From Paenibacillus sp. (GTDB lineage Bacteria; Bacteroidota; Bacteroidia; Bacteroidales; Muribaculaceae), in contig JAMPHR010000002.1 in assembly GCA_023663345.1 (NCBI GenBank), positions 383,034 to 447,033 of the forward strand: a stretch of DNA of 64,000 bases, given 5' to 3'. Numbering within the stretch: position 1 is the first letter of the stretch; the number at the start of each line of letters is the position of its first letter. The notes under the pieces are model-generated. The model was not told the DNA's origin and searched no databases. It saw only the letters and a list, made by a program, of their open reading frames with translations. Positions 47,662 through 50,052 of the stretch are shown piece after piece. A program made the position numbers and the translations under genes.

Positions 47662-48672
47662 ATGAAGATAGTAATTGACCGTAATATTCCGTTCATAGCC
47701 ACTCCGTTGGCTGAGGTTGGCGAGGTGACAGCCCTGCCCGGTGCCGAAATCACCCCCGAGGTGATGGCTGACACAGATATATTGATCACGCGCACGCGCA
47801 CGCGATGTGACGCCTCACTGCTCGACGGGTCGAAATGCCGGTTCATAGGCACAGCCACCATCGGCACCGACCATATCGACCTCCCCTACTGCGCAGAGCG
47901 CGGTATCACCGTGGCAAACGCTCCCGGATGTAACGCCCCCGCCGTGGCCCAATGGGTGCTCGCGACGATAGACTCATGGCTGAAGCCGGGAGAATCGTTC
48001 AGCGATGTGACACTCGGAGTAATCGGAGCGGGAAATGTCGGATCAATCCTCATACGTTGGGCCAAGAGCCTGGGCATCAATGTGCTGGTCAACGACCCTC
48101 CGCTTCAGGAGCGCGAACCTGAAGCGCACGCTTATTCATCACTCGACGAGATAGCCCGCGAGTGCAACGTGATAACCGTACACACCCCACTCACCCGCAA
48201 GGGGAATCACCCCACCTATCACCTCATCGACAGCGCACTGGTGGAGCGTATGGAGCGCAAACCGCTCGTACTCAACGCCGCACGTGGCCCCGTCACCGAC
48301 ACTCAGGCACTGATACGTGGACTGGAGGAAGGCCGGATTTCGGCCGTCGGGATCGATTGCTGGGAAGGGGAGCCGGCTATTGACAGCCGTCTGCTCGACA
48401 TGGCACTCGTGGCCACCCCCCACATAGCCGGATATTCCCGGCAGGGCAAGATACGGGCCTCGCAGATGGTGCTCGATGCCCTGGGCAGTTATCTCGGAAC
48501 CGCCACTACGCTCCAGGCCGATGCTCCGGCCATAGGGGCTGTGCCCGAGACAATTACTCCCGCAATGATAGCTTATGACATCATGGCCGACACCCGCGAG
48601 CTGAAATCTACGCCCGAACTCTTTGAGTCGCTCCGCAATAATTATCATCTGCGCGAGGAGCCGGGGATGTAA
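47662..48672 (+). CDS. pdxB: Erythronate-4-phosphate dehydrogenase
   Basis: D-2-hydroxyacid dehydrogenase family enzyme of 336 aa that oxidises 4-phosphoerythronate in the DXP-dependent pyridoxal phosphate pathway. It opens MKIVIDRNIPF, typical of PdxB; the NAD-binding loop is VTLGVIGAGNVGSILIRWAK and the catalytic region includes LVLNAARGPVTDTQAL and LVATPHIAGYSRQGK. The C-terminal dimerisation part is shorter than in E. coli PdxB (about 380 aa), as in other Bacteroidetes. No promoter box is evident between the upstream hairpin and the start. Confidence 0.92.
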   Translation: MKIVIDRNIPFIATPLAEVGEVTALPGAEITPEVMADTDILITRTRTRCDASLLDGSKCRFIGTATIGTDHIDLPYCAERGITVANAPGCNAPAVAQWVLATIDSWLKPGESFSDVTLGVIGAGNVGSILIRWAKSLGINVLVNDPPLQEREPEAHAYSSLDEIARECNVITVHTPLTRKGNHPTYHLIDSALVERMERKPLVLNAARGPVTDTQALIRGLEEGRISAVGIDCWEGEPAIDSRLLDMALVATPHIAGYSRQGKIRASQMVLDALGSYLGTATTLQADAPAIGAVPETITPAMIAYDIMADTRELKSTPELFESLRNNYHLREEPGM

Positions 48673-48738
48673 AAAACGGTTTCTAAAATTCAAGGTCCTA
48701 AATTCGTGTTCTGAGGGAGTTTAATAACTCCTTCTGAA

Positions 48739-48868
48739 AAGTTTTCAACACTTTTCGGATAGTTATTAACATTCTATCTACAAGTTATTGACATTTTATT
48801 GACAAGTTATCAACATAGTGTTGACAAGTTATTGACACTTTATCGACATATTGTTGACAGTTATTGAC
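48739..48868. repeat. Array of twelve phased 11-bp repeats (iteron or DnaA-box-like)
   Basis: Twelve consecutive units of 11 bp (two of 10) fill 48739-48868 with consensus AAGTTATTGAC. Read as 9-mers they give TTATTGACA four times (48785, 48796, 48829, 48861), TTATTAACA, TTATCAACA, TTATCGACA, TTGTTGACA, GTGTTGACA, TTTTCAACA and CTATCTACA; eleven of twelve end in ACA. TTATCAACA and TTATCGACA differ from the DnaA box TTATCCACA by one base. The period of 11 bp puts the same face of the helix towards a protein at each unit. A GGAGTT/AACTCC hairpin (48716-48731) lies just before it, probably ending the pdxB transcript. The array ends 65 bp before the -33 box of the next gene. The rest of this 326-nt gap (48869-48933) shows nothing else. 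Confidence 0.75.
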
Positions 48869-48933
48869 ACCTGACAGCATACAGAGACTCATCTACTACT
48901 GCCTCAACCGACAACAAAAGCCGTGCGACTGAC

Positions 48934-48965
48934 TTTGGATAATCATAAATAAATCACTAACTTTG
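48934..48965 (+). promoter_or_regulatory. Complete -33/-7 promoter of the Panacea-domain operon
   Basis: TTTG at 48934-48937, a 20-nt spacer and TAACTTTG at 48958-48965. The predicted leader is about 27 nt to the ATG at 48999. Confidence 0.8.
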
Positions 48966-48998
48966 CGTTGTTTGATATAATATGACTCTCTCTAATAT

Positions 48999-49544
48999 AT
49001 GCGAAATATGATTGACAATAAAAACATACAGGATGTTGCAAAATATGTCGGGCTATCCTCGACTACGAAAGGATTGTCAATAAGTCCTCTCAAATTGCAG
49101 AAACTGCTCTACTATATACAGGCCTGGTTCATGGTTTTCTACGGTCGCGACAACACATTGTTCCGCGATGTGCCCCAAGCTTGGGTTAACGGGCCGGTAT
49201 ATCCCGCCATCTACCATATCTACAAGAGTAAGGCCGCTAATATGTGCGACCATCTTGACAGCTCGGTATTCTATGACGGCGACGCACTTGAAGGACTCTC
49301 CATGCTGACGCATACACTCGGATTGAACGCGGATCAGTTTGAAACAGTAGAGTCAGTAATCATGATGTATGGCAAGCAGAGTCAAAATCAGCTTATATGG
49401 CTTACCCACTCAGAATTGCCTTGGGCCTCTGCCCGTCACGGTCTTGCCCCCTTTGAGAAATCGGAGCGGGAAATATCTCTTGACACGATGTATTCCTATT
49501 ATCTGGAACGTCACACCCGCAACAGGCAGAAGCATGAAGCTTGA
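48999..49544 (+). CDS. Panacea-domain (DUF4065, SocA-like) protein, putative antitoxin
   Basis: A cytosolic protein of 181 aa with the Panacea/DUF4065 layout: SPLKLQKLLYYIQAWFMVFY, then AWVNGPVYPAIYHIYKS, and LSMLTHTLGL further on. In characterised systems this domain is the antitoxin that neutralises very diverse toxins encoded beside it (established). It starts at 48999, or at the second Met (49008). Its last codons overlap the start of the next gene by 11 bp, as expected for a coupled toxin-antitoxin operon. No separate DNA-binding domain is visible in it. Base composition is more AT-rich than in the neighbouring housekeeping genes. Confidence 0.82.
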   Translation: MRNMIDNKNIQDVAKYVGLSSTTKGLSISPLKLQKLLYYIQAWFMVFYGRDNTLFRDVPQAWVNGPVYPAIYHIYKSKAANMCDHLDSSVFYDGDALEGLSMLTHTLGLNADQFETVESVIMMYGKQSQNQLIWLTHSELPWASARHGLAPFEKSEREISLDTMYSYYLERHTRNRQKHEA

Positions 49545-50052
49545 TTTCGACGATGTCATAGAAAAAGAGGATTTCAACACAATCAACAGCCGTGAGAGGT
49601 TTGACAAGGAACTATCGGTTGATGATGTGAGGCTGTCCACTGACTTACCCATCGTGATCAGGTATGACTACGTTGATCTGGAAGATACCGATTACAATTT
49701 CTGGCAAAAGTTTACCCATGAGGATACCATGGGCTATTTTGCCAAAATGAAATTATTTGCCGGCAAGAGTATAAATAAACTTCTGACTGAGGATCGGTCT
49801 CACCATTTCCACAGAAGCGAACTCAAAGGGAATGTCCGCAAGGCTGTCAGTCGGATACTCCCGAAATCAGTTGACACAAATCAGATCGTATATCACTTCG
49901 GCCTATATGATTCTGGAGATGCCTGGGCTGACCGCAACACGGACACAAGATGCTCTCGTGTCTATTTCATGTTAGGCACATACGGACACATCTACATATT
50001 GTTCTTTGATCCATATCACGAGTTGAATCCATTGCCAAAACCGGCCCAATAA
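49534..50052 (+). CDS. Putative toxin partner of the Panacea protein, family unknown
   Basis: A 172-aa cytosolic protein. The frame is open to 49369, but the ATG at 49534, which overlaps the antitoxin stop by 11 bp, gives MKLDFDDVIEKEDFNTIN, while the upstream part lies wholly inside the antitoxin gene. The N-terminal third is acidic; the middle has a His-rich stretch DRSHHFHRSELKGNVRKA, and the C-terminus ends with a hydrophobic beta hairpin YFMLGTYGHIYILFFDPYHE. I do not recognise the family; the His-rich motif and Arg/Lys nearby could be catalytic or RNA-binding. The toxin role rests only on position and overlap. Confidence 0.6.
   Translation: MKLDFDDVIEKEDFNTINSRERFDKELSVDDVRLSTDLPIVIRYDYVDLEDTDYNFWQKFTHEDTMGYFAKMKLFAGKSINKLLTEDRSHHFHRSELKGNVRKAVSRILPKSVDTNQIVYHFGLYDSGDAWADRNTDTRCSRVYFMLGTYGHIYILFFDPYHELNPLPKPAQ

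Follow-up and report, generated by a model that had tools for sequence, protein, structure and literature searches.

Downstream of a pdxB-like gene, the window (the whole analysed stretch of 64,000 nucleotides) carries a dense run of short direct repeats, which raises the question of which protein occupies them and what follows from this occupation. The initial annotation had offered a DnaA-binding control or origin region, an iteron remnant of a mobile replicon, or an operator array of some other regulator.

The repeat array and its neighbours

The repeats are TTWTNNACA-like 9-mers, which lie on a single strand at a pitch of 11 bp, far above chance expectation (Table 1). While the regular array of the initial annotation was recovered, its number of twelve repeats was not: eleven units are distributed over twelve phases, the slot at 48753 contains no box, and the final step amounts to 10 bp. 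As described before, the 9-mers end in ACA, which holds true for all eleven, and all of them are located on the plus strand. The eight better boxes are spaced by 21, 22, 11, 11, 22, 11 and 21 bp. At 11 bp they are in phase with a coherence of 0.96, a value reached by 0 of 100000 random placements. The near-constant period of 11 bp was likewise reflected by TRF, which picked up the array at periods of 11, 22 and 33, and by a self-identity at lag 11 of 58/97, compared to a maximum of 46 across 40 simulated windows. In 5000 simulations of the intergenic region, an identity of 58 was never attained. Two units, TTATCAACA at 48807 and TTATCGACA at 48840, differ by one base from the DnaA box TTATCCACA, as had been noticed. 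Since no exact match to the E. coli consensus TTWTNCACA was present within the array, its boxes look weak.

Table 1. Units of the array and neighbouring features (window positions; scores refer to the box matrix described below).
Feature	Position	Strand	Remark
Array of 11 DnaA-box-like 9-mers	48742..48869	+	same orientation, pitch 11 bp
Better box TTTTCAACA	48742..48750	+	matrix score 17.1
Better box TTATTAACA	48763..48771	+	matrix score 18.7
Weak in-phase unit CTATCTACA	48774..48782	+	matrix score 4.5
Better box TTATTGACA	48785..48793	+	matrix score 15.9
Better box TTATTGACA	48796..48804	+	matrix score 12.8
Better box TTATCAACA	48807..48815	+	matrix score 18.2
Weak in-phase unit GTGTTGACA	48818..48826	+	matrix score -2.9; by matrix not a box
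Better box TTATTGACA	48829..48837	+	matrix score 15.9
Better box TTATCGACA	48840..48848	+	matrix score 12.6
Weak in-phase unit TTGTTGACA	48851..48859	+	matrix score 5.3
Better box TTATTGACA	48861..48869	+	matrix score 15.9
pdxB-like gene, left neighbour	47662..48672	+	NF001309 372 bits, under its cut-off of 434
Two overlapping terminator-like hairpins after pdxB	48709..48759		second overlaps first box
Bacteroidota promoter-pattern match	48934..48965	+	about 65 bp downstream of array
Panacea (SocA-like) domain gene	48999..49544	+	PF13274 61.7 bits, cut-off 25.7
Partner of the Panacea gene, possibly the toxin	49537..50052	+	second gene of the pair

The setting of the array agrees with the earlier description of a 326-nt gap (48673-48998), which is bordered by pdxB on the left and by the Panacea-domain gene on the right. 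On the plus strand, pdxB is followed by the hairpins, the array, the promoter match, the Panacea gene, its partner, a gene with a TerB domain and an amidase gene; beyond the amidase, the other strand carries a thioredoxin gene and then an ORF read as dnaE by inspection. The hairpins comprise an inverted repeat at 48709-48738 and a terminator-like scan match at 48733-48759, with 0.3 matches expected. Bacteroidota promoters follow the pattern TTTG - 20 nt - TAnnTTTG, and the match to it lies ahead of the Panacea pair, where a promoter had been proposed.

Compared to the Pfam result, the NCBIfam SocA model gave 51.3 bits for the Panacea gene and thus a value under its cut-off of 190. The gene belongs to a two-gene unit, as in PanAT toxin-antitoxin systems, where the partner is a toxin that becomes neutralised, and its own partner is kept beside it in the genomes G092 (74% identity) and G135 (33%). 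For the partner no Pfam, PADLOC or NCBIfam match was obtained, the best E in PHROGs being 0.22, and it is a candidate for a new toxin type. Within the family the Panacea gene is scattered, occurring in 8/149 genomes including the own one (E up to 1e-15). The loci fetched for its nearest homologues, in G092 (75%), G002 (64%) and G135 (49%), showed no box cluster. In G092 and G135 the two genes stay together although no array is present, and the array is therefore no constant companion of the Panacea pair.

In one related locus (L088) terB follows about 140 nt after pdxB and in another (L089) the amidase gene about 115 nt after it, with neither array nor Panacea gene in between. Accordingly, array and pair fill an apparent insertion of about 1.4 kb. 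A box cluster was absent from the array site in 15/15 relatives whose pdxB locus was compared (14 of the genus and one of the family; about 0.7-1.5 kb seen behind pdxB), and the array is species-specific among the relatives checked. As a consequence, selection on the array is no more than a possibility. Conservation in close strains, the lack of which the initial annotation had named as one refuting outcome, is thus literally missing at this site, while clusters of the same class recur elsewhere in the genus.

A shared box motif at the array and at a putative oriC

The own assembly is a Muribaculaceae MAG of 2.64 Mb in 22 contigs with a completeness of 86.6%. Its putative oriC was located upstream of nadA-leuS at 258988-259339 of the contig C15, which also carries the window (383034-447033) and, within it, the array at 431.8 kb. 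A query spanning the oriC region and the start of nadA gave matches in 25/27 genomes of the genus, the own included, some of which rest on the nadA part alone. In all 20 fetched loci (own included) a minus-strand box lies 12 bp after a plus-strand box, and the other boxes keep fixed offsets in most of them. The 20 loci also share an AT-rich flank with 85-89% AT between +160 and +200 relative to the anchor. At least four boxes in the 750 bp upstream of nadA were found in 41/48 genomes from other genera of the family and in 17/30 genomes of an order sample (one of the family included), the locus orientation being taken from search tables in both counts. A position far from dnaA is common for the oriC of Bacteroidetes, according to passages of a paper on Prevotella intermedia (PMC4755523).

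Since raw GC skew tracks gene direction in these genomes, third-position skew was averaged over genes of both strands. At the nadA locus of G010 it was negative on the left in 7/8 and positive on the right in 8/9 samples (3/20 not computable), and in G008 the corresponding values were 8/9 and 6/7 (4/20 not computable). The raw skew of G008 returned to negative values at 3.1 and 3.4 Mb on the 3.6-Mb contig, near the antipode of the locus at about 3.0 Mb. In G022 a switch near 816-836 kb, with exceptions on either side, partially supports the nadA locus. The own contig showed no clean switch at the putative oriC, neither in raw nor in third-position skew, which may be explained by rearrangement, islands or assembly. 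Altogether, we assign oriC to the nadA locus with high, but not full, confidence.

For a comparison with the array, a matrix was built from 130 putative-oriC boxes, which came from 19 further genomes of the genus, with the own genome held out and training scores of 11.9-18.7 (5th-95th percentile). Since the training boxes were chosen by their likeness to a DnaA-type 9-mer at fixed offsets, the matrix reports a motif common to array and oriC and not DnaA binding as such. Eight of the eleven array units scored 12.6-18.7 and three scored low (Table 1). The matrix gave nine matches in 150 bp at the array (eight on the plus and one on the minus strand), which is the densest stretch of the 582-kb contig, compared to at most three per 150 bp in five simulated contigs. 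Four or more matches per 150 bp occurred on C15 only at the array and at the putative oriC. An exact search of the own genome for TTATNNACA-N2-4-TTATNNACA gave five matches, of which three fall into the array while the other two are located at C15:259075 and C20:40214; all exact tandem boxes are thus confined to the array, the putative oriC and a tRNA-Met cluster. For this lineage the box form TTATYRACA is proposed rather than TTATNCACA. C at position 6 was found in 0/130 oriC boxes and in 3/141 clustered boxes outside the origin (own array included), compared to 37/124 background boxes on C15. The motif of the array is that of the putative oriC boxes of its lineage. Judged from this identity, DnaA very probably binds the array, and among the initial options a DnaA-binding control region is the one which the sequence comparison supports.

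The departure from the E. coli box at position 6 draws attention to the protein, for which the residue numbering of E. coli DnaA (D433 and T435) was taken from passages of PMC7561715. Profile searches with PF00308 and PF08299 found no dnaA in the own 86.6%-complete assembly, which counts against a role of DnaA here; as 25/27 genomes of the genus carry dnaA, the missing gene is probably a gap of the MAG. The recognition helix of DnaA in the order departs from that of E. coli. In the 25 DnaAs of the genus (dnaA loci L062-L086), the residue aligned with D433 is T or S throughout, while it is D in all 29 readable sequences out of 30 examined from other families of the order. In a family sample 37/50 helices were readable and two had D at this position, three of the 50 genomes being of the genus. 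A link between D433 and position 6 of the box was rejected on wider sampling of the order, since the other families have D and yet also A at position 6: upstream of nadA, the order boxes showed A in 81/105 and C in 9/105, seven of the 105 boxes belonging to a single member of the window's own family. The position of T435 is occupied by A in 25/25 sequences of the genus and 25/29 of the order, and residue 435 would fit position 6 of the box better than D433.

Related clusters and known systems

Clusters of such boxes outside the origin form a class in the genus. From pattern and blastn matches, 19 clusters were gathered in 16 genomes (own array and own tRNA-Met cluster included), of which nine adjoin tRNA-Met and three tRNA-Arg genes. 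The window's array itself is not beside a tRNA gene. One further cluster beside tRNA-Met was found in G010 in the skew sample. As a side observation, clusters adjoin tRNA-Met(CAT) in ten genomes of the genus, the own copy being located at C20:40200-40350 (L002) and the others at L126, L128, L129, L134, L135, L145, L147, L150 and L279. On the same contig, the distance from cluster to oriC was about 65 kb in G022, 425 kb in G025, 327 kb in G010 and 172 kb for the window's array.

Spacings on the same strand within the clusters pile up at 11-12, 20-23 and 31-34 bp. For 99 spacings, the own array being left out, the phasing coherence was 0.73 at 10.5 bp and 0.70-0.72 at 10, 10.8 and 11 bp, related loci not being independent. 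Because the 2- to 4-bp spacing of the search pattern favours steps of 11 to 13 bp, only the peaks at 20-23 and 31-34 bp are free of this bias. In the other clusters, no enrichment of weak boxes was seen halfway between strong ones.

Among the systems known from other bacteria, the DBCs of B. subtilis resemble the array in that several DnaA boxes of the host type are clustered in a short stretch outside oriC, where the position outside oriC rests for the array on a MAG contig and on the skew of relatives. Loss of all six DBCs causes early initiation according to passages of PMC5295017. Different from the DBCs, the array has a one-directional pitch of 11 bp and the box TTATYRACA. The datA locus of E. 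coli, which promotes hydrolysis of the ATP bound to DnaA, likewise carries DnaA boxes outside the origin, and its position downstream of a tRNA-Gly operon (passages of PMC10950094) recalls the many clusters of the genus beside tRNA genes, in contrast to the window's array. While minimal datA comprises one IHF site and four boxes, the array comprises about eleven tandem units and contains no exact match to the IHF consensus TAAnnnnTTGATW, for which reason it is not filed under datA. A single IHF match with one mismatch lies in the array (48775-48787, minus strand), the window total of such matches being 25 compared to 14.8 expected. In oriC of E. coli, weak sites separated by 2 bp become occupied in a cooperative manner, starting from strong ones, as stated in passages of PMC6070618. 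These 2-bp gaps correspond to the same geometry as the 11-bp pitch of the array; however, the E. coli arrays lie inside oriC with four sites per gap, whereas the window's array lies outside oriC and is longer.

A possible role of the array and its alternatives

Based on the motif identity with the putative oriC boxes, the phasing, the position outside oriC and the species restriction among the relatives checked, we lean towards a cluster of DnaA boxes outside oriC which would hold or sense DnaA or change its state and may touch the Panacea promoter. The eight better boxes, which are separated by one or two helical turns and face the same side of the DNA, would be bound by DnaA, and binding would spread from there in a cooperative manner to some of the degenerate units in phase with them, resulting in a one-directional filament of up to about eleven DnaA protomers. 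By analogy with the B. subtilis DBCs and E. coli datA, the filament would leave less DnaA available to oriC, and the occupied array may also affect the neighbouring promoter. Counted against this reading are the lack of the array at its site in the relatives, the dnaA gene missing from the assembly, the three low-scoring units, the other clusters without midway weak boxes, the lack of a clean skew switch at the putative oriC of C15 and the dependence of the 172 kb on a MAG contig.

It is also conceivable, if unlikely, that the array is mainly a DnaA-responsive operator, which switches the Panacea operon with the DnaA level or the replication state. The short distance between the end of the array and the good promoter match, about 65 bp, would suit such a role, as would the joint presence of array and pair in one insertion, and DnaA acts as a transcription factor at some B. 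subtilis promoters (passages of PMC4447404). However, the Panacea homologues in G092, G002 and G135 do without a box cluster in the fetched loci, and 12/19 clusters outside the origin adjoin tRNA genes.

Improbable is an operator of another regulator or nucleoid protein, which would also occupy the clusters at oriC and tRNA-Met, so that the nadA boxes would not be DnaA boxes. While the deviation of position 6 from the E. coli box could be read in this way, the boxes keep TT-T--ACA and a fixed layout at a locus with a skew switch, and the recognition helix of the order's DnaA differs from that of E. coli as well. On the basis of the sequences, an additional regulator appears not to be needed for the array.

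A passive, functionless tandem duplication of a 22-bp unit would account for the 4.0 copies with 75% matches which TRF reported at this period, and the array is not conserved at its site. Nonetheless, eight units hold TT and ACA while the other positions vary, and the genus contains further clusters with this phasing, which makes a mere duplication quite improbable. Even less can be said for a mobile replicon which has integrated here and whose iterons a plasmid Rep protein would bind. Phased direct repeats are common to array and plasmid iterons, and those of the array lie within a species-specific insertion, but no Rep family was found among the seven neighbouring products (Pfam, 46.6-51.6 kb), plasmids gave no match and phages one weak match, and the motif equals that of the chromosomal putative oriC; this part of the initial annotation is therefore very improbable. 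Finally, the array as chromosomal or second origin can practically be dismissed, since the own copy of oriC lies 172 kb away and since, despite more tandem boxes than the putative oriC of C15, the array shows neither the conserved layout nor the AT-rich flank of the nadA locus (flanks of 65% and 62% AT, and a 40-bp AT peak of 80% inside the array compared to 92.5% beside oriC), no cluster at its site in relatives, and neither a skew switch nor the skew minimum that had been proposed as a check, on a contig that is itself noisy.

Returning to the array as a DnaA-box cluster outside oriC, a more far-reaching version may be considered, which we regard as speculative and rather unlikely. A DnaA filament on the array would tie the SocA-like Panacea pair to the replication cycle, with the DnaA-ATP level or replication arrest switching the pair, and the genus would more widely employ one-way DnaA arrays with helical phasing as regulatory modules appearing at new sites. 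SocB, the toxin partner of the Panacea antitoxin SocA, is an inhibitor of replication (passages of PMC8832971).

DnaA-box clusters outside the origin are already known. Among the open-access papers searched, with subscription papers mostly outside, no description was found of a dense, one-directional array with helical phasing and this form of box, nor of non-origin DnaA-box clusters in Muribaculaceae, and none of these papers combined 'DnaA box' with 'Muribaculaceae'. The timing of replication initiation in Bacteroidota is little documented in the literature searched. An oriC locus, the box form TTATYRACA and phased non-origin clusters are now proposed from sequence for Muribaculaceae, a major family of the mouse gut, which opens DnaA titration or control in these bacteria to direct tests. 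Running in one direction, the dense array would furthermore lend itself naturally to the assembly of DnaA filaments on double-stranded DNA.

Some minor observations concern the searches for further clusters. A stretch of G008 with four matrix matches (L302) was dropped, as the part inspected contained no strict-pattern box. A triple-box scan of viral contigs gave at least 120 stretches and was too unspecific to use. In two genomes (L091, and L184 in G025) pdxB and the tRNA-Met cluster are about 10 kb apart, and on C90 of G014 about 47 kb; based on these three genomes, a box cluster in the vicinity of the pdxB region is frequent.
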